A program made the position numbers and the translations under genes. A DNA stretch of 64,000 bases from Limnoperna fortunei (lineage: Eukaryota; Mollusca; Bivalvia; Mytilida; Modiolidae). The stretch is from the NCBI GenBank assembly GCA_944474755.1, contig OX104112.1, forward strand, positions 16,084,273 through 16,148,272, given 5' to 3'. This document shows positions 12,590-64,000 of the stretch, one piece after another. Numbering within the stretch: position 1 is the stretch's first letter; each line of letters starts with the position of its first letter. The notes under the pieces were generated by a model. The model searched no databases and was not told where the DNA came from. It was given only the letters and a program-made list of their open reading frames with translations.

Positions 12590-14215
12590 AGGCCGTTCCA
12601 TCTTAGATTTTAGGCTCAGTACTATATCTGACACCTGCAGGCCTATACCGACCAGTGATTGTATCTAGACCAAGTACTGGAAACTGAGATTGGGAGGCCG
12701 TCCGACCAGGTATCGTATCCAGACTAAGTACTGGTGCCTTAAACCTGGAGAACGTACGGACATTATTTATATTCAGACTGAGAACTAGAAACTGACACCG
12801 GGAGGCCGTTTGACCATTGATTATATACAGACTAAGTACTGGAAACGGACATCCGGGGCCTTTCGACCATTAATTGTATCTAATCTAAGTACCTTTTAAA
12901 TGACATCTGGCTGCCGTTCAACTAGGAATTGTAACTAGACTAATACTGGTAACTGACACAGAGGGGGGAAGGGGCGGCGTTCGACCACTAATTGTATCTA
13001 GACAAAGTACTTTTAACTGACATCGTGAAGCCGTTCGACCAGCAGTTGTATTTAGAATATGTACTGGTAACTGACACCGGGAGGCCGTTTGATCATTAAT
13101 TGTTTAGACTATGTACTGGTAACTGTCACCTGCAGGCCTATCGTCCATAAATTGTATCTAAAATAAGTACTGGTAACTTACACCGGGAAGCCGTTCGATC
13201 ATTAATTGTATATAGTCTGTGTATTGGTAACTGACACCAGGAGGCCGTTCGATCATTAATTGTATCTAGACTATATGTACTGGTTACTGACACGGGATTC
13301 CGTTCGAAAATTAATTGCATCTAGACTCAGAACAGGTAACTGACACACGAAGGTTGTTTGACCATGGGTTATATTTAGACTAAGAACTAGAAACTGACAC
13401 ACTGGGGTGATTTGACTAGTAATCGTATCTAGACTAAGTACTGGTAACTGAAACCGAGAGAATGTTCAAACACGAATCATTTCCATACTATGGAAACTCA
13501 CACCGGGAAAACCGTTCGACCTGTAATTGTATCTAGGCTAAGTGGACTTTTTTAATTGACACCGGGAAGTATTTCGACTTACTTGTATCTTGACTAAGTA
13601 CTAGTAACTGACACCGAGAGAACGTTCGATCATTGATTGCATCTAGACTCAAAACAGTTACCTGGCACATGACGGTTGTTTGACTAATTGTATCTAGACT
13701 AAGTACTTTTCTCTGATACCGGGAGGCTGTTTGACCATTGACTGTATCTGGACAAAGTACTGGAAACTGACATCAGGTAGCCGTTTGGCCATTAATCGTA
13801 TCTAGACTAAGTTACAGGTAATTGACACCGAGAGAACGTTCGAACATGAATTATATCCAGACCTAAAACTGGAAACTCACACCGTGATAGTACTGGTAAT
13901 TGACACCGGGGCCGTTCTACCATCAATTGTATCTAGACTAAGTACTTTCAACTGACATCGGGAAACATTTCGACTGTTAATCGTATCTTGACTAAGTACT
14001 GTTAACTAACACCGAAAGGCCGTTCGATCATTAATTTTATCTAGAATTAGTACTGGTAATTTACAGACGGAGACCGTTCGACCATTGATTGTATCTGACA
14101 CCGGGAGGCCGCTCAACAATACATTGTATCTAGACTAAGTACTGGTAACTGACACCGGGAGGCCGCTCAGCAATACATTATATCTAGACAAAGTACTGGT
14201 AACTGACATACAACT
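12590..14215. repeat. Degenerate ~54-bp satellite/minisatellite array
   Basis: Roughly thirty diverged tandem units spell ACTAAGTACTGGTAACTGAC, then ACCGGGAGGCCGTTCGACC, then ATTAATTGTATCTAG. Most units are near 54 bp, but some lack an internal piece. Heavy divergence between neighbours points to an old array. Two adjacent units near 14097-14190 (GGGAGGCCGCTCA...ATACATT) are much more alike, so local re-duplication has occurred. No coding content. Confidence 0.85.
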
Positions 14216-20041: not shown

Positions 20042-21700
20042 TTATGAACAAGAAAATACGAAAACCGACTTTCCATCGTCGTTTGTCACAAAGAAATTGC
20101 GATAATTTCTACTGAATGCAAGAGCCCACGGATTACTAATTTTCTTGTCATGATCCAATATGACGTCAATGACGTTCCCGTCTGCAGAAAGTCGATGTAT
20201 GTTATTTGAGTCTAAACAAGCAACGTACAGGTTACCTCCCCTGTCAGTAGTCACAGCTTCAGGTCCAATGAAATTTTCAGGTGTACATGTGAAACGTACT
20301 TCTCCACCGAGTTTGACACAGCCTACTGTGTTATTGTGCTCGTCAGTATAGTAGACACTATCCTGTGGACCCGGATGTAGGTAGTTAATGCAACCACAAG
20401 GTATAGTTATTGTAGTTATTGTCTCCCCTTGTTTACTGAGGATGTTAATATTCCCATCATGACAACCAACACAGATCTTATCACCGACAACAGCAATACC
20501 CCAACAATCACCAGGTACATAATGTGTACCACCGGACTTCATTGATTTTATGTCAACAAACTGTATTGGCCACTGGTTAGGTAGGGATACTACAGCCTTA
20601 TCTTCTCCTGGTATAATAGCAATACCCCATGGTTGACCAGATAACATACAATCCTGTAGGTACTCACCACGGTCACTATATACCAGTAACTTGGTACTAC
20701 TCCAGTTACAGAGTAGTAGACGGTTGTCGTCTGTCACAGCAATACTGGAAATAACACCATCTTCAGATTTAATATCAAATTTCATGTCAAAGTCGAATTT
20801 TGTTGGCATCTGAATTGTTGTCGGTAAAACCTGAGCTTGATTTGATTTAGATGGTTTATACTTGATCGGACATGGTGTAGACTCAATGTGTAGTGACCCT
20901 AAGGATTCGATCTTGAGTTCCTGTGGTGATTGTTTAAATGAAATGTTAGAGGTAAACATTGATGCTATCATTTTCTGTATTTTTATAGTGTATTCTGTAA
21001 CTTTCAATTTGTACGAATTTAATAAAATGAATAGCTGGTTCTCTGATCCGTGTTTTGATACAAGATCTAATTTACTGGTAACCTCGTCAAGAGACTCCAT
21101 CATTTCCGATAATGTGTCCTTATCAGATTTAATTTGAGTCTCGCATTTTGTCTTTGTAGATTTTACCTCAGATATGACTTTCCTCTCGAAATCATCAAGA
21201 CGTTCTACAATTTTAGATTTTATATGCGACACATTTCGCAGCACATCCGCTTCTTCATCATTCAGACTCTTTAAATTAACATCGCGGTTGCAAATAAGTT
21301 TTTCCACAGTTTCACGTATGCTTGATACGGTACCAAATACATTATCCATCATGGGTGATCTTCGTACTGCTTTTGACGCAACGTCTACAGGAACGATTTT
21401 TGGACGTATCCGGTGTGTTTCTGACATGCATGAACGGCAGCATAGACAATCATGACCCACACAGAAAAAATCGAGCGTCATTTCTTCGTGTTTTGTACAG
21501 GAATTTTTAACAGATAATGTTTCCATGGGTAACGATCCAGAATCGATTAAATGATGAAAGGCAAAAGTTTTAAATAAACTATGGGCAGTAAGGCAATCCT
21601 TACAGAGATTCTCTTCGCAATCAGTGCAATACTTTATGGCCATTACGGGTGACAGTTGGTTGCGTAAGCATGGATCACAACTCTGATTGGACGATGCCAT
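20042..21700 (-). CDS. TRIM-like protein: two B-boxes, coiled coil, NHL-type beta-propeller (no RING)
   Basis: A single uninterrupted 552-residue frame. B-box 1 ligands are C8, C11, C25, C28, C33, C36, H40 and H49/H50. B-box 2 is C68-x2-H71, C80, C88-x2-C91 and H96, but the usual last His position holds Arg99. Residues about 115-260 are charged and helical, consistent with the coiled coil by which TRIM proteins dimerise. Residues about 300-552 carry NHL/beta-propeller-like blades (GIAVVGDKICVG, GNLYVACLDSNNIHRL, WALAFSR). There is no N-terminal RING, so E3 ligase activity cannot be assumed. By family it is a cytoplasmic protein related to TRIM2/3/45/56/71-type B-box/NHL proteins, which are greatly expanded in bivalves and often linked to innate immunity; its function here is inferred only. 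The ATG at 21700 is chosen because a splice-acceptor-like TATTTTTCAG ends six bases upstream, suggesting a non-coding first exon further right. A decayed partial copy lies at 63290-64000. Confidence 0.93.
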   Translation of the reverse strand: MASSNQSCDPCLRNQLSPVMAIKYCTDCEENLCKDCLTAHSLFKTFAFHHLIDSGSLPMETLSVKNSCTKHEEMTLDFFCVGHDCLCCRSCMSETHRIRPKIVPVDVASKAVRRSPMMDNVFGTVSSIRETVEKLICNRDVNLKSLNDEEADVLRNVSHIKSKIVERLDDFERKVISEVKSTKTKCETQIKSDKDTLSEMMESLDEVTSKLDLVSKHGSENQLFILLNSYKLKVTEYTIKIQKMIASMFTSNISFKQSPQELKIESLGSLHIESTPCPIKYKPSKSNQAQVLPTTIQMPTKFDFDMKFDIKSEDGVISSIAVTDDNRLLLCNWSSTKLLVYSDRGEYLQDCMLSGQPWGIAIIPGEDKAVVSLPNQWPIQFVDIKSMKSGGTHYVPGDCWGIAVVGDKICVGCHDGNINILSKQGETITTITIPCGCINYLHPGPQDSVYYTDEHNNTVGCVKLGGEVRFTCTPENFIGPEAVTTDRGGNLYVACLDSNNIHRLSADGNVIDVILDHDKKISNPWALAFSRNYRNFFVTNDDGKSVFVFSCS

Positions 21701-21722
21701 TATTACCTGAAAAATATTGAGT
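21701..21722 (-). promoter_or_regulatory. Candidate 3' splice site of a 5' UTR intron
   Basis: Read on the minus strand, TCAATATTTTTCAG is followed by GTAATA and then the ATG of the TRIM-like gene. The T-rich run plus AG makes a reasonable acceptor. The matching donor and first exon were not identified. Confidence 0.45.
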
Positions 21723-21778
21723 CGATGAAATATATTATTAAACTTCTAAACGAAACAAAATAAGTACAGTTATTGGAA

Positions 21779-22076
21779 CTACTGGTGGTTAATGTGTTAT
21801 CTAAACACCAACTACTGGTGGTTAATGTGTTATCTAAACACCAACTACTGGTGGTTAATGTGTTATCTAAACACCAACTACTGGTGGTTAATGTGTTATC
21901 TAAACACCAACTACTGGTGGTTAATGTGTTATCTAAACACCAACTACTGGTGGTTAATGTGTTATCTAAACACCAACTACTGGTGGTTAATGTGTTATCT
22001 AAACACCAACTACTGGTGGTTAATGTGTAATCTAAACACCAACTACTGGTGGTTAATGTGTTATCTAAACATCAAC
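21779..22076. repeat. 33-bp minisatellite, nine copies
   Basis: Nine tandem copies of a 33-bp unit made of ACTACTGGTGGTTAATGTG and TTATCTAAACACCA. The first eight are almost identical; the eighth has GTGTAATC for GTGTTATC and the ninth ends in CATCAACTC. The high identity points to recent expansion. It sits about 80 bp upstream of the TRIM-like start codon, so probably within the 5' UTR intron or promoter. The 11-residue repeat peptide read through it is an artefact of the 3n period. Confidence 0.95.
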
Positions 22077-22548
22077 TCAGTTGTGTCAAAAGTGATAATT
22101 TTGATTAAAAATTAGTTAATTGCAGAAACATTATATTTATGATTTCGATGCAAAATCAATCCTAGAATGCAGTTTTGTTTATAAGGTTAATTACTTCAAT
22201 ATAGTATATTTAAACATTCATCCAAATTCATTATTGTTAAAAATCACTTTTCATCTATTTGTGCTTTTTTTATGTGATGCATCCTTGTCATTTAAGTTTG
22301 GAGTCGAACCACATTGCCCGTAGCTATAATAATGTAGCTCCTTTTTTATATACCCTCAAACCTGCCATCTCAGTATTGATATAACCATTCGCTCATACAG
22401 GCCAACCACATGATGGTTAAATATCATTGATTAGTCCTTGAATTTTTATACTGAAACTGACTCAATTACAAAACTTAACAACTGTTGATGACGTCGCTGC
22501 TCATTCTAGGAATGCATGGTCTATGTCTCGCCTTTACCTGGATGTAAC
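22077..22548. other. No gene seen
   Basis: AT-rich spacer between the minisatellite and the Tc1/mariner element. Confidence 0.5.
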
Positions 22549-25015: not shown

Positions 25016-26509
25016 AAAATGTGAAGAATTTTTTATATTGTTGGTGTTGACAGTTTAATGACATTTTGCTGCAATATCAAATAAATAATACAAAACTTTG
25101 ATATTTTTATCTTTCCTAGTAGTGGTACAGTATTGTATCAATATTGATCTCAATTCCAAAATCTTACAATACTGTAATGTTAAACTAATGAGAAATTCAG
25201 TGTCATACAATATTGAGCAATGTCATGAATTTCAGGCGTATACTTTTGAACTTAAAAACACTCCTGTGATTTAAATGACACCTTTAAATTGGACCTTTAA
25301 TATCTATCTTAAGAATGATAAAAACCAACAGAAAATTTATGTTAACATTTATTAATTAGAAGCATTTGTAATAAGAATATTACACTATATAAGTATTTAA
25401 AAATATACAAAATAAAAAAACCACATCATACTATTATACTATTTTTAACAGTGTCTACAAAGATAGTTCAGAAGTTAGTTGTCACTATATATTTCTCCGG
25501 TTTTTTTTGTGCATTTCTTTTCTTTCCTTTCCACAGAAATTTTATTTGTGTACACTTGACATTAATGAGAAAATACTTCCTTACAAACATACCACAATGC
25601 AGCATTAAATTATATTTATAACAAATTACAAGCAGCAAATATCTCTGCATACTAAAAAAATACAGCACTATACTATTGTAACTTGACTTGATCCAAGAAT
25701 CTTTAAAGAGCTTAAATATTACCATTTATAAGAAAAAATCTAACATATATATATATGAAAAAAGAAAATGTAAAACTCGTTATTAATTTGCTTTAGAAGG
25801 GGTTGATCACAAATTTGTCCAAGATGAGAAAGAAAATGGTTACGAAATTAAACATTTAACTACACGAAAACAATGACCGAATTCATACAAAACTTAACAT
25901 CTAATACAAACTACATATTGCTTGAATCCTAGCATTCTCTTTAAATGTTTTGATAACTGGTATATGTTTTCAGAGTAAGTCCTCTCATCTTTGGAATACA
26001 CACACGATTTAAAAAGACAGCAACTTAAAAATGCCTATATAATTTTCAAAAGGTCACAGCAGCATCAGAAGTATATTAAATATACTGCCATAATGCCACA
26101 AAACCAGTATGTTTGCTTCCCTATTTCTTACTCAAATTCTAAATTTTTGTTAATGTTGTCTTCATTTAAGTCATCCTAACCTGAATTTGCCTCAAAACAG
26201 GCTTCAGTACCTTCTAAATTGTTATACAATTGTGATAGAATATAATTTTCTCATATGATCAAAATAAAATTTCAGTTTTTCAAAACTAATGTCATTTTGA
26301 TTTTAACTATGTAACTAATTGGCGCATCATCAGTCAATAAATTAATGTCGCAAACTCTTATATTGCATTCTAATAAATGCTTATGGACTTGTCTGTCAGA
26401 AATAACTTTTTCATTTCATGTTGCATTCTAAATACCATCTATGTATTAATATCTAACACAATGGCTTGCTCAGATTTGCTTGGTGTATAAACTGTGTAAT
26501 CTAAGAGAA
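25016..26509. other. No gene seen
   Basis: AT-rich. Open frames of 62-85 codons have no recognisable family. Confidence 0.5.
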
Positions 26510-26910
26510 GCGGCTTCACTGGTTTGTGTACACCTTTTCTCCGAATGCAATGAGTAGCGGCTTCACTGATTCGTGTGCACGCTTTCTCCCAATGCAAGGA
26601 GTAGCGGCTTCACTGGTTCGTGTGCACACTTTTTCCCAAAGCAAGGGATTAGGGGCTCACTGGTTTGGGTGCATGCTTTCTCCCAATGCAAGGAGTAGCG
26701 GCTTCACTTGTTTGTGTGCACGCTTTTGCCCAAAGCAAGGAGTAGCAGCTTCACTGGTTTGTGTGCACGCTTTCTCCCAATGCAAGGAGTAGCGGCTTCA
26801 CTAGTTTGTGTGCATGCTTTCTCCCCAAGGGCAGCGGCTTCACAGAATTGTGTGCACACTCCCATTAAAAAACAGAAGCTTAGTGTGCACGCTTTCTCCT
26901 AGGTATTGCA
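26510..26910. repeat. 47-bp minisatellite, about eight copies
   Basis: Tandem units of 47 bp: GCGGCTTCACTGGTTTGTGT, then GCACGCTTTCTCCCAATGCA, then AGGAGTA. Clear starts are at 26510 and 26557. Later copies show substitutions, and the last two are shortened before the array fades at about 26910. Confidence 0.88.

Positions 26911-34786: not shown

Positions 34787-34838
<52 letters not shown>
34787..34838. repeat. (TA)n microsatellite
   Basis: Uninterrupted TA dinucleotides directly abutting the left Penelope arm. Length is likely to be polymorphic. Confidence 0.95.
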
Positions 34839-34839
<1 letters not shown>

Positions 34840-35496
34840 CATAAAACAATTACACAAAATAAGTGTCACATAATTACGAAAATCTAGCGCTTTCATCCAT
34901 CATGGGACTTTTCAAGATTGTTTTTGTTACTAAGCGTAACGTTGTTAATGGGGCATATTTGTGACGTAACGTCATTGTTTATAGTGCATTTAGTTTCGGT
35001 TGGAACAGTTTTATAAATTTTCTTTCTGTTTCTTTTCTGTATTCCTCATTATCTTGTTGGCATTTATAAAAAGGGAAAATTTTAAATTTTCCACCCGCGC
35101 ATACTTCTAAATGTTCGCTTAATGGAATTTGTCTATATTCCGGTTGTCGGATTTGTTGTTTGTGGATCCGAACGCGTTCACTTAGACTGTTTCATGTTTG
35201 GCCAACGTATTCTTCCTTACAGTTTGTGCATATGATACAGTAAATTAGATTCTCCGTTTTACATGTCATATTGGCCTTTATTTTAAAATTCTTTCCGTTG
35301 TTGAATGTTATTTCAGAGCCAGTTTGCAAGTAATTGAAATTTTCCCTTGATGAACATACACCGCATCTTTTATCACCACATATTTTTACACAGAAGGAAT
35401 TTTCATTTATATTGAATCTCGCTGTTGTTAAATGACGTTTTAGATTCATTGGTTGTCTTCTGCTGTATATTATTGACTCATCTTTAATACGAGTTA
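34833..35496 (-). mobile_element. Penelope-like element 3' end, left (longer) copy, premature stop
   Basis: The minus-strand frame runs from the junction at 35496 through KDESIIYSRRQPMNLKR and a Cys-rich linker (CGDKRCGVCSS). It continues into a GIY-YIG-type endonuclease core, NLIYCIICTNCKEEYVGQT. There a TGA (about 35189-35191) replaces the GGA glycine codon of the other copy, and the frame stops. GIY-YIG endonucleases follow the reverse transcriptase in Penelope-like retroelements and nick target DNA for reverse transcription. The reverse transcriptase is not present, so this copy is 5' truncated. The first 534 bp (34833-35366) are an inverted copy of 35497-36030. The extra 130 bp (35367-35496) exists only in this arm. 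Confidence 0.85.
34878..34913 (-). ncRNA. Hammerhead-like motif in the Penelope 3' region (left arm)
   Basis: The exact inverted copy of the motif at 35950-35985, with the same stem I pairing, GAAA and AGCGCTA segments and the same non-canonical CATGATGG core. Confidence 0.45.
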
Positions 35497-36030
35497 ATGC
35501 GGTGTATGTTCATCAAGGGAAAATTTCAATTACTTGCAAACTGGCTCTGAAATAACATTCAACAACGGAAAGAATTTTAAAATAAAGGCCAATATGACAT
35601 GTAAAACGGAGAATCTAATTTACTGTATCATATGCACAAACTGTAAGGAAGAATACGTTGGCCAAACAGGAAACAGTCTAAGTGAACGCGTTCGGATCCA
35701 CAAACAACAAATCCGACAACCGGAATATAGACAAATTCCATTAAGCGAACATTTAGAAGTATGCGCGGGTGGAAAATTTAAAATTTTCCCTTTTTATAAA
35801 TGCCAACAAGATAATGAGGAATACAGAAAAGAAACAGAAAGAAAATTTATAAAACTGTTCCAACCGAAACTAAATGCACTATAAACAATGACGTTACGTC
35901 ACAAATATGCCCCATTAACAACGTTACGCTTAGTAACAAAAACAATCTTGAAAAGTCCCATGATGGATGAAAGCGCTAGATTTTCGTAATTATGTGACAC
36001 TTATTTTGTGTAATTGTTTTATGTTATATA
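35497..36030 (+). mobile_element. Penelope-like element 3' end, right copy, GIY-YIG frame intact
   Basis: The open frame 35498-35884 encodes the end of the Cys-rich linker (CGVCSS), the GIY-YIG core (LIYCI ... EYVGQTGNSLSERVRIHK) and the C-terminus (KLFQPKLNAL). It stops at TAA. In this family the LIY and YVG pair is the GIY-YIG signature, and the Arg in SERVRIHK is a plausible catalytic residue. The copy is 5' truncated exactly at the junction with its inverted partner. Its 3' region holds a hammerhead-like motif (35950-35985). The two arms are head to head. Confidence 0.88.
35950..35985 (+). ncRNA. Hammerhead-like motif in the Penelope 3' region (right arm)
   Basis: GAAAAGTC (35950-35957) can pair with GATTTTC (35979-35985) as stem I, with one bulged G. 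Between them are GAAA (35969-35972) and the self-complementary AGCGCT with a following A, matching the GAAA - stem III - UA cleavage arrangement. The CTGATGA box is not canonical here; CATGATGG occupies that place and stem II would be minimal. Hammerhead ribozymes are known from Penelope-like elements, but this copy may be inactive. Confidence 0.45.
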
Positions 36031-36062
36031 ACGCTGCACATTGTTTATAAAAGACTTTTTTT

Positions 36063-36096
36063 CTATATATATATATATATATATATATAGAAAGTC

Positions 36097-36189
<93 letters not shown>
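36063..36189. repeat. (TA)n microsatellite, two blocks
   Basis: TA runs at 36064-36088 and 36098-36189 are split by GAAAGTCG. With 34787-34838 they bracket the Penelope pair on both sides. Confidence 0.95.
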
Positions 36190-51581: not shown

Positions 51582-52009
51582 AGGCCATCTTATAAAATTT
51601 GGTATTTAAATAGTCATATCTTCATAACTATAAGATATGTTGACATATGATGTTCACTGTTGGTCCTTTTTTACGTTTACCAAGGTCAAGGTCACATTGT
51701 AAAAAGTCATGGTCAAAATCCAATTTTTTGGAAACTCTGCTTTTTCGTGTATATAAAATGGTTAATACTAATAAATTATTTGTTTGTAAAGCATTAAATA
51801 TGCAAATATCAAACACTTTGTAGTGAAGGTCAGTTATCTCAATTAACGTCCTACTTTATGACCTGTTTATTTCGCAAGATATACAAATGGTTTTTTTCGT
51901 TTGTTTAATTTGAAAAGAATATTCAATTTCCATAAAACCAAAGTCAAGGCCAAGGTCATTTTTGCAATAAGTGGAAAGCCTCTCATTTGTTTGGTAGAAC
52001 GAATGAACT
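51582..52009. repeat. AAGGTCAAGGTCA-rich dispersed repeat sequence
   Basis: CCAAGGTCAAGGTCACATTG (about 51679) and CAAAGTCAAGGCCAAGGTCA (about 51938) continue the theme of the inverted repeat. No coding exon is supported. Confidence 0.5.
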
Positions 52010-52495
52010 TATATTTTTGATTACATTGTGTTGGAATATTTGAGCAAAGCCAAGTAAGAGCACGGCACGTTCGCAGGTGGCGGACTGGCAAGCAACTATA
52101 AAAAAGTTTTGTGTTCAGTTGGAGTGAGAAAGTTTAAGATCAATATGTTATGATTGTTTACGTTATTTATTTATATTGACACTCAATGACTAAGGCCATT
52201 CGTTGGTCAGCCTGTGTCTAAATTTTTGACAAGAAACACCGTCATTTGTATCGTTGCATAATCTTCTAGACTTGTATATTATTATTGTTTGTTTATGGTG
52301 TATCGTCATGTTCGTCGATCTGATACTAAATGAATGTACTGGTTTAGCAGCTTTCTTTAGACTCTTTATATAATATTTTGAACTGCCTGAATTGTGTATT
52401 TACACGATTACATTGGACTTATATTATTCCATCTCCCAATGAAAAAAATATTATTCCATCTCCAAATGAATAATATCTTAAACATTTAGAGTTAA

Positions 52496-52539
52496 ACGCC
52501 ACTGATGAGTCTTAAGTAGACGAAACGCGCGTCTTGCGT
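52496..52539 (+). ncRNA. Hammerhead ribozyme, unit 1 (one stem I mismatch)
   Basis: Stem I 5' strand ACGCCA (52496-52501), core CTGATGA (52502-52508), stem II GTC/GAC with loop TTAAGTA (52509-52521), GAAA (52522-52525). The minimal stem III is ACGCGCGT, whose first A is the last of GAAA, with cleavage expected after C52533. The stem I 3' strand TTGCGT (52534-52539) has one C-U mismatch. Type I topology. Confidence 0.85.
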
Positions 52540-53090
52540 ACTGAATTTGTCACCTTGAGAATTTTTATTATGCCATTTCAATAATTTAGAAAGTGACATA
52601 ATTATTATAATTTTTATTACATCTTGTTGGAATATTTGAGCAAAGCCAAGTAACAGCACGGCACGTCGGCGGGTGGCGGATTGGGAAGCAACTATAAAAA
52701 GTTTTGGGTTTATTTAGAGTGAAAAAGTTTAAGATCAATATGTTATGATTGTTTACGTTATTTATTTATATTGACACTCAATGACTAAGGCCATTCGTTG
52801 ATCAGTCTGCGTCTACATTTTATACAAGAACCACTGTCATTTGTATCGTCGCATAATCTTCTAGACTTGTATATTATTATTTTTTGTTTATGCTGTATCG
52901 TCATGTTTGTCGATCCGATACTAAATAAGTTTACTGGTTTAGCAGCTTTCTTTAGACTCTTTATATAATATTTTGAACTGCCTGTATTGTGTATTTACAC
53001 GATCCCAGTGGAATTATATTATTCCATCTCCCAATGAAAAGAATATTATTTCATCTCCAAAAGAATAATATCTTAAACATTTAGAGTTTA

Positions 53091-53134
53091 ACGCCACTGA
53101 TGAGTCTTAAGTAGACGAAACGCGCGTCTGGCGT
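53091..53134 (+). ncRNA. Hammerhead ribozyme, unit 2 (all conserved positions intact)
   Basis: ACGCCA (53091-53096) pairs fully with TGGCGT (53129-53134) as stem I. CTGATGA (53097-53103) and GAAA (53117-53120) are exact. Stem II is GTC/GAC (53104-53106 / 53114-53116). Stem III is the self-complementary ACGCGCGT (53120-53127), and the cleavage site is GTC ending at C53128. Such a short stem III usually works best as a dimer or in tandem transcripts. It should be catalytically competent by sequence. Confidence 0.92.
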
Positions 53135-53683
53135 AATGAATTTAATTTGTCACCTTGATAATTTTGATTATTTCATTTCAATAATTTAGAAAGTGACATA
53201 ATTATAATAATTTTGTATTACATCTTGTTGCAATATTTGAGAAAAGCCAAGTAACAGCACCGCACGTCCGCGGGTTGCGGACTGGGAAGCAACTATAAAA
53301 AGTTTTGGGTTCAGTTGGAGTGAGAAAGTTTAAGATCAATATGTTATGCTTGTTTACGTTATTTATTTATATTGACACTCAATGACTAAACCATTCGTTG
53401 ATAAGGCTGTGTCTAAATTCTTGACAAGAAACACCTTCATTTGTATCGTTGCATAATCTCCTAGACTTGTATATTATTATTGTTTGTTTATGCTGTATCG
53501 TCATTTTTGTTGCTCCGATACTAAATAAGTCTACTGGTTTAGCAGCTTTCTTTAGACTCTTTATTTAATATTTTGAACTACCTGTATTGTGTATTTACAC
53601 GATCCCAGTAATATCCCATCTCCCGATGAAAAAACATATTATTCCATCTCCCAATGAATAATATCTTAAACATTTAGAGTTAA

Positions 53684-53727
53684 ACGCCATTATTGAGTCT
53701 TAAGTAGACGAAACACGCGTCTGGCGT
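53684..53727 (+). ncRNA. Hammerhead ribozyme, unit 3 (decayed core)
   Basis: Stem I ACGCCA / TGGCGT is intact, but the core reads TTATTGA (53690-53696) instead of CTGATGA, losing C3, G5 and A6. Stem III has become ACACGCGT with a mismatch. Predicted inactive. Confidence 0.85.
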
Positions 53728-54109
53728 AATTAATTTGTCACCTTGATAATTTTGATTACATCTTGTTGGAATATTTGAGCAAAGCCAAGTAACAGCACGG
53801 CACGTCCGCGGGTTGCGGACTAGGATGCAACTATAAAAAGTTTTGGGTTCATTTGGAGTGAGAAAGTTTAAGATCAATATGTTATGATTGTTTACCTTAT
53901 TTATTTATATTGACACTCAATGACTAAGGTCATTCGTTGGTCAGTCTGCGTCTAAATTTTTGACAAGAAACATTGTCATTTGTATCGTTGCATAATCTTC
54001 TTGACTTGTATATTTTTATTTTTTGATGCTATATTGTCATGTTTGTCGATCCGATACTAAATAAGTGTATTGGTTTAGCAGCTTTCTTTAGACTCTCTCT
54101 CTCTGCAGG

Positions 54110-54510
54110 TACATGTATGGGCAGGAAATTCCAGAAGAGGTTTATTTTCAATGGAAGCAAGTTAAGTAAAATTCTGCAAGACAAACTTCTGCCTTTCATT
54201 AAATAATCTTATCCAAATGGTCATCGGTTTATTCAAGACAATGATCCAAACATGTCAGCAAGTCGACGAAAGAGTGGATGGAGTCGAAAGGCGTAAATCA
54301 CTGGGTTACATCACAGGAATAACCAGATATGAATCCTATCAAAAACATTTGGGCAGGATTGAAAAATTATATTAGAAGGTTTCAAAAAGCCACAGAATCA
54401 ACAAGATCAAGTGGACGGCATTGTAGAGTATTGGCAAACGTTAACACTAGAGATATGTTCAAAATATATTTACCATCTGTACAAAGTAATGCCAGAAGTG
54501 GTTGAAAGGG
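54110..54510 (+). pseudogene. Tc1/mariner transposase fragment, dead
   Basis: Frames switch within a recognisable C-terminal half: SKILQDKLLPFIK, two stops, then HRFIQDNDP (second Asp motif), a one-base shift, then KEWMESKGV, one stop, then DMNPIKNIWAGLKNYIRR. The catalytic Glu of NPIE is Lys. No TIRs were found. It begins immediately after the truncated fourth hammerhead unit, next to CTCTCTCTCTGCAG. Confidence 0.82.
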
Positions 54511-54909
54511 ATGGTGCTGCATGTGGATAGTAAATGTGTACTATATACATGTAGCCGACTATAATTTGTAAAAGTAGAACAGTATAGAAAAGAATGCTAT
54601 TTTCTAAAACTGTATGTAAATTTAAATCGTACTTCTTACATGTGTTACCATTTGTATTGTTCTTATTTTTGTATTATTATTGTGTTGTTAAAAACAGAGA
54701 AAATGGAAAAAAGATTAAAAAAACTGATGGGTATTCATTTCGTGCATATGCTCTTATTTAAATTTAATCTGACACTCTAAAAATCTGCTGTTGACTCCAA
54801 AACATCGAGTGAATCAATAAACTGTTCTAAAGGCTGGTGCGGATTGAAAGAAGGAATAATTTTAAAATGTATTGTACAGCACATTAAATTAACTTGCTTT
54901 TTATCTTAC
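54511..54909. other. No gene seen
   Basis: AT-rich spacer between the Tc1 fragment and the next TIR element. Confidence 0.5.
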
Positions 54910-63285: not shown

Positions 63286-64000
63286 TACGTATTATGAACA
63301 AGATAATACGAAAACCGACTATCCATCATTGTTTGTCACAAATATTGCGATAATTTCCACTATATTCCAGACCTCGCGGTTTACTACTTTTCTTGTCATG
63401 GCCCAAACGATGTAAATGACGTTCCCGTCTTGCGAAAATTGATGCATGTTTTTTGAGTTCAGGCAAAAAATGTACAGATTGCTTTCCCTGTCAATAATCA
63501 CAGGTCTAGGTCCATTGAAGTTTTCAGGTGTACGAATAAAACACACTTCTCCACTGAATTTGGCACAACCTACTGTGTTACTGCGATAGTTAGTAGTAGA
63601 CACTATCATTTGGACCCGGATGTAGGTAGTTAACGTAACCACTACCAGGTAAAGGTAGTATAGTTTGCTTCCCTTCTCTGAGGATGTAAATATTTCCCTT
63701 ACCACCAACACAAAATCTTTATCACCGACAACAGCTATACCGCCGTAACACCCGCCAGGTACAGAATGTGTACCACCGGACTTTTTGGATTTATGTCAAC
63801 AAACTGTATTGACCGCTAGGAAGGTAGGGCTACTACAACTTTATCTTCACCTGGTATAATAGCTTTATCCCATGGCTTATAAGATAACGTACAATCCTGT
63901 AGTTAATCACTATGGTCACTGTATACCAGTAACTTGGTACTGTCACGGTTACAGAATAGTAGACGGTTATCGTCTGTCACACCAATACTGGTTATACAGA
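63285..64000 (-). pseudogene. Decayed partial copy of the TRIM-like gene (propeller region), cut by window edge
   Basis: Aligned by eye to 20042-20740: both begin near ATTATGAACAAGA and share AATACGAAAACCGACT, TTTTCAGGTGTAC, CCTACTGTGTTA, GGACCCGGATGTAGGTAGTT and ACCAGTAACTTGGTACT. Against the intact gene this copy has many substitutions and several small insertions and deletions that shift the frame, for example CACAAATATTGCG for CACAAAGAAATTGCG. Only 63319-63711 stays open. Part of the NHL-type propeller is recognisable; the B-boxes would lie beyond the right edge. Similarity continues into the 3' flank (ACATACAAACTAATCACTA versus ACATACCAACTAATCACTA), so the duplication included DNA past the stop codon. 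Confidence 0.88.

Follow-up and report, generated by a model that had tools for sequence, protein, structure and literature searches.

Retrozyme arrays of Limnoperna fortunei with ends like those of a Penelope-like element

The window, a stretch of 64,000 nucleotides of Limnoperna fortunei DNA, contains a tandem array of a metazoan non-LTR retrozyme, a kind already known in animals. The insertion ends of this retrozyme family resemble those of a Penelope-like element (PLE) that the genome also carries, and may point to the enzyme that moves the retrozyme. Judged from sequence, the array is probably an old insertion of a non-autonomous retrozyme whose circular RNA was copied by the PLE protein, with an internal start at (TA)n targets. 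What appears to be new here is the set of end-site marks for PLE mobilisation, drawn from one genome and one PLE family.

The array in the window

The array occupies 52009..54095 on the plus strand (3.5 units). Its four units run in the same direction, unit 1 being cut at the 5' end and unit 4 at the 3' end. The complete units measure 595 and 593 nt between cleavage sites, the last unit stops at 374 nt, and pairs of units are 91-93% identical. GC content is 33%, below 50% as in metazoan non-LTR retrozymes. An earlier note on this DNA had read the locus as a retrozyme array that encodes no protein; comparison with the metazoan non-LTR kind (PMC7229834) supports the first point, and the longest stop-to-stop frame overlapping the array, at 88 codons, agrees with the second. 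The window array is a non-coding, worn and partly decayed copy.

Metazoan non-LTR retrozymes are known from mussel, coral and axolotl (Cervera & de la Pena 2020, PMC7229834; this and the other papers are cited from excerpts). As in the retrozyme of Mytilus galloprovincialis (PMC7229834), the repeats are tandem and non-coding with a type I hammerhead, low in GC, present in thousands of copies and accompanied by PLEs in the genome. Unit size differs, being mostly 479-595 nt here and 350-390 nt in M. galloprovincialis (PMC7229834), and it exceeds the repeat size of ~150-450 bp given as a metazoan retrozyme trait. Since the discussion in PMC7229834 speaks of retrozyme circles of 150 to over 1000 nt, the larger units are read as a wider size range and not as an exclusion from metazoan retrozymes. 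The compact, highly self-paired unit RNA of metazoan non-LTR retrozymes (PMC7229834) was not found in unit 2, the one decayed unit examined, whose folding energy is ordinary (z 0.55 against shuffles).

Hammerhead ribozymes

The earlier note had proposed a check with the Rfam type I hammerhead model (RF00163, Hammerhead_1; gathering cut-off 34 bits), and this placed two units above the cut-off. The ribozyme of unit 2 (53091..53134, plus strand) scores 39.0 bits (E 2.4e-6 for the 64-kb window) with all pairs and the core intact, and that of unit 1 (52496..52539, plus strand) scores 34.1 bits with an intact core and one C.U mismatch in stem I. These are the only Rfam matches of any family in the window at gathering score. 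The third copy, in unit 3 (53684..53727, plus strand), reaches 18.8 bits, below the cut-off; its first core box reads TTATTGA instead of CTGATGA and the ribozyme is presumably dead. The count of three hammerhead-ending units out of four thus stands by position, but only two cores are intact. Unit 2 does have the complete core and fully paired stem I attributed to it, and is the sole unit to combine both. Cleavage is predicted after 52533, 53128 and 53721 in units 1, 2 and 3, which gives exactly the spacings of 595 and 593 nt that had been reported. Stem II had been described as the 3-bp GTC/GAC and was found instead to be 4 bp, GTCT/AGAC, closed by a TAAGT loop.

Stem III has 2 bp with a GCGC loop in a single copy and 8 bp between two copies. 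When two ribozyme copies are folded together, the predicted structure is exactly a double hammerhead (-34.3 kcal/mol), the arrangement that works in amphibian retrozymes (PMC7229834); a single copy is predicted to favour a misfold (-11.3 vs -8.1 kcal/mol for the hammerhead). The predicted pairing probability of stem I in 164-nt stretches is 0.72-0.99 for unit 2 and 0 for unit 1; the prediction for a two-unit transcript gives little pairing in either ribozyme, with stem I at 0.08 or less and stem III at 0. Because the window copy is partly decayed, this locus could release a unit-length circle only by way of the weak unit 1 ribozyme.

Covariation in the ribozyme is weak, with one stem I pair changed on both sides (at two loci, L010 and L028), and several slid controls have as many or more two-sided pair changes. 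The ribozyme claim therefore rests on the Rfam score and on copy number. The ribozyme core matches the genome exactly 6254 times (3022 + 3232) and a backwards control 0 times, so the hammerhead is not a chance occurrence.

Retrozymes across the genome

Genome counts refer to the 1.34-Gb assembly that contains the window. The window unit has at least 215 matching places (from the best 38 of 2129 candidates scored), and retrozyme insertions are dispersed through the genome. Unit length differs by locus, most units being ~479, 510, 520, 540, 550 or 595 nt; in the 20 stretches of 9.9 kb read for retrozyme loci, the classes are mostly 478-480, 498-514, 519-523, 537-541 or 546-556 nt. The 44-nt ribozyme is nearly constant, its 115 copies in all stretches read falling into 37 forms, two of which account for 72 copies. 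A minus copy lies to the left of a plus copy, that is head to head, in 8 of the 20 loci. One array (L013) has 17 spacings of exactly 510 nt, and this and some other arrays look homogenised by ordinary DNA recombination. Viral and prokaryote contigs searched with one ribozyme pattern, and plasmids searched with the unit, gave no matches, as expected of an animal element.

A second tandem family with hammerheads, in units of 363-380 nt, was seen at two loci, L064 and L065 (G000:C1:8835700-8837200 and 8846000-8847000). Its significant likeness to the window unit is limited to a 37-nt ribozyme stretch, and the one unit read has neither the AGACT nor the TATAT sites described below. Part of its unit resembles what we take to be a repeat common in mollusc transcripts.

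Retrozyme ends

Most 3' ends of the sister arrays fall at one of two sites and then run into (TA)n. Internal copies of both sites are present in the window on the plus strand. Site a (AGACTCTTTATATA) lies at 52359..52372 in unit 1, with further copies at 52954 in unit 2 and, altered to TTTATTTA, at 53554 in unit 3. Site b (AGACTTGTATAT) lies at 52863..52874 in unit 2, with further copies at 52268 and 53463 and a mutated one at 54002. The sites are ~92 nt apart in the unit and each consists of AGACT followed by TATAT; in two units examined, AGACT occurs only twice, both times just upstream of sites a and b. For the mussel retrozyme, the excerpts of PMC7229834 report no such pair of end sites in (TA)n, and our search of open-licence PubMed Central, largely at the level of titles and abstracts, found no earlier report of retrozyme ends in TA microsatellites.

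The two ends of the arrays behave differently. Among the matches listed, all 11 part-units at 3' ends, the window array included, stop at unit positions 427-440, and two other part-matches, to 580 and 593, sit inside arrays and not at 3' ends. The 12 part-units listed at 5' ends start at positions scattered from 91 to 286 (11 of the 12 were taken into one end-position analysis). Ten of the 11 3' junctions were fetched: seven run straight into (TA)n, two (L037, L038) reach at least four TA repeats after a short interruption, and one (L033) has TATATA. The background in the same loci and the window is 955 of 187,506 positions (0.5%) passing the same (TA)n test. Genome-wide, exact junctions with (TA)n number 97 at site a and 512 at site b.

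Terminal rows from all sources number 37, of which 27 have (TA)4 or more and three have TATATA; among these rows, five from L055-L062 were reached by way of PLE junctions, so that TA is no independent finding in them, and two at L023 share a flank. Four rows have neither (TA)4 nor TATATA, namely the window, L019, which ends at site a without TA, and two that face each other at L027. The other three have no tail motif: a spurious match at L015, a truncated copy at L024, and L062, which enters TA though the tail motif missed it. According to BLAST, ends lie away from sites a and b in at least 4 of the 20 fetched loci (L010, L022, L024, L026). On the 5' side, TA tracts were seen by eye in all four flanks read (L039, L041, L042, L043) and at 4 of the 22 array starts listed, head-to-head starts included (L011, L012, L015, L017).

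Such arrays could also be satellite DNA, spread by DNA circles that enter TA repeats of the genome by recombination at TATAT stretches of the unit, with the ribozyme as a passenger. Long, very even arrays such as L013 and one of ~20 kb on C13 would suit this explanation, as would the arrays that have (TA)n on both sides. Recombination at one TATAT should, however, put both ends there, whereas the listed 5' ends are scattered and the 3' ends clustered. Two other TATAT stretches of the unit, at positions 234 and 482, are unused, with 1 and 0 exact (TA)n junctions genome-wide against the 97 and 512 of sites a and b; these control counts cover positions 234 and 482, a stretch at 111 in the L012 unit being left out. 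The PLE, a retroelement, also has the same kind of ends, and we regard a satellite origin as quite improbable.

The window array itself ends at site a (54090..54099, plus strand), where CTCTCT follows in place of (TA)n and no target duplication can be seen; this counts against copying by a PLE protein. Inside (TA)n, the length of a target duplication is unreadable. A compound (CT)n(TA)n tract adjoins the array end at L021 (~1660-1783 of the oriented copy) and may be compared with the CTCTCT at the window array.

The Penelope-like element

The window also holds a PLE relic at 35498..36063 on the plus strand, comprising a GIY-YIG endonuclease frame (Pfam E 3e-9) and the 3' end with its tail. A second copy on the minus strand (34839..35503) lies head to head with it, and both outer ends meet TA repeats, a (TA)26 tract at 34787..34838 beyond the minus copy and an interrupted (TA) tract at 36064..36189 beyond the plus copy. 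Genome-wide this PLE has at least 43 matches of 92-100% identity (from the best 40 of 147 candidates scored). It is tandem at one locus with a period of 3672 bp, where RVT_1 (E 1.1e-8) and GIY-YIG (E 9.4e-9) lie in overlapping frames; a relative, P0001, has reverse transcriptase and GIY-YIG in one frame. Among at least 120 relatives of the reverse transcriptase listed, the animal names are those of bivalves (Mytilus, Solemya, Saccostrea, Ylistrum) and some others carry names of bivalve symbionts. In the tandem PLE (L063, G000:C11:18716900-18721300), the reverse transcriptase is preceded by a frame of 432 codons that has no Pfam match at E 0.01.

The ends of the PLE are of the same kind as those of the retrozyme. 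Its 3' junctions enter (TA)n in 18 of 19 cases, the remaining one being an internal tandem junction. Site i (GTTATATA) accounts for 6 of the 18, and the other 12 lie 38 nt beyond it at site ii (AGACTTTTTTCTATATA and variants). All 10 inverted pairs among the matches listed are head to head. Retrozyme sequence is present in 7 of the 19 PLE junction stretches, and in six of these seven (not in L048) it lies tail to tail with the PLE across the TA tract. AGACT is common to PLE site ii and the retrozyme sites and is absent from site i. The alignment of PLE and retrozyme tails is not significant, 178 of 2000 shuffles being equally good, and a recognition motif common to both elements is suggestive only.

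Hammerheads occur in the pseudo-LTRs of PLEs elsewhere (PMC7761336), which raises the idea that the array belongs to a PLE as its terminal repeat region and is not a separate element. An Rfam scan of one 3672-bp PLE unit, however, found no hammerhead up to E 5, and separate arrays of the retrozyme unit occur repeatedly, so that this explanation is most improbable.

Alternatively, the retrozyme might owe its movement to a different non-LTR retrotransposon with (TA)n as its target, and the PLE would be just a neighbour in those tracts. Common targets alone would place both elements in the same tracts, the tail alignment gives no significant likeness, and repeats in Nematostella are reported to be flanked by target duplications of 15 bp that resemble LINE ones (PMC4918200), which counts against a PLE as the enzyme source. 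Set against this, the combination of two-site 3' ends with tandem and head-to-head copies matches the described marks of PLEs and is present in the PLE of this genome; another retrotransposon seems unlikely as the source.

A proposed PLE-based mechanism

Copying by the PLE protein draws on what is described for other PLEs. Poseidon, the Anolis PLE, encodes a protein that cleaves AT-rich DNA on the two strands and extends them; it begins reverse transcription within its RNA, at two closely spaced positions, and this accounts for the optional tail of genomic copies (PMC11167929). In rotifers, PLEs are tandem or partial tandem and inverted ones are mostly head to head; a preference of PLEs for simple AT-rich targets has been reported (PMC3846280). 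The same marks, namely an AT-rich simple target (the window copy excepted), two end sites, and tandem and head-to-head copies, are found in the retrozyme as in these PLEs (Poseidon, PMC11167929; Adineta Penelope, PMC3846280). The retrozyme differs in having no reverse transcriptase or endonuclease frame and in the distance of ~92 nt between its sites, as against a PLE tail of 30-40 bp (PMC11167929, PMC3846280).

We propose that the type I hammerheads would cut tandem transcripts, probably most readily when two units join in a double hammerhead, and that the unit-length RNA would be circularised by a host ligase. The circle would serve as template for the protein of the PLE in the same genome, whose GIY-YIG endonuclease would open a (TA)n tract. 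Reverse transcription would then start inside the retrozyme RNA at one of the two AGACT..UAUAU sites, so that sites a and b, seen as end sites, would also be start sites. Running round the circle would lay down tandem units with a fixed 3' end and a variable 5' end. As (TA)n is identical on both strands, priming could take place from both target strands, and would give head-to-head inverted arrays with TA on both outer sides. The UAUAU of the retrozyme RNA could pair with the (TA)n target, unlike the Anolis PLE start site, which is not homologous to its target (PMC11167929); alternatively, the TA run may mask the true end of the element. Besides the end of the window array and the Nematostella duplications, several observations weigh against this mechanism: the array ends away from sites a and b, the single-copy misfold and the poor pairing predicted for two-unit transcripts, the homogenised look of some arrays, the PLE unit in which no hammerhead was found, the missing AGACT in PLE site i, and the second hammerhead family, whose unit as read has neither AGACT nor TATAT.

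This arrangement would parallel the SINE / LINE partnership, in which a non-autonomous RNA borrows the enzyme of its partner. Enzyme borrowing is alike in the two cases, but the retrozyme template is probably circular, its start would be internal, and the 3' sequence likeness to the PLE is not significant. PLEs had been proposed as the enzyme source of retrozymes from their co-occurrence (PMC7229834, PMC7761336), and the 2020 review, in the excerpts cited, describes the repeats as having no conserved motif from which a partner could be deduced (PMC7761336). The ends described here offer such a motif, with two preferred sites in (TA)n and an end type common to the PLE, and since the Anolis relative of this PLE has a working in-vitro assay the question of the partner is directly testable. 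More generally, we lean slightly towards the view that animal retrozymes are circular-RNA parasites of PLEs, in which cDNA would be initiated by the PLE protein at two AGACT-UAUAU sites inside the circle, on either strand of nicked (TA)n. A single step would then yield both tandem and head-to-head arrays and seed satellite-like arrays genome-wide. In this way a small circular RNA could become the source of satellite DNA.

Other features of the window

To the right of the array, degenerate frames at 54105-54530 match Pfam DDE_3 no better than E 0.12 and resemble the relic of a Tc1/mariner transposase; six selected frames beside the array match no Pfam family at E 0.01. A 567-codon frame on the minus strand (20042-21745) combines B-box zinc fingers (E 2.8e-7) with an end that is propeller-like (Vgb_lyase, E 4.2e-8, a match below the cut-off of that family). 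At the window end, a minus-strand frame (63319-63795) with no Pfam match appears by eye to be a decayed partial relative of the 567-codon frame. Minisatellites lie at 12649-14208 (54 bp), 21777-22077 (33 bp), 26505-26857 (47 bp) and 5-358 (39 bp).
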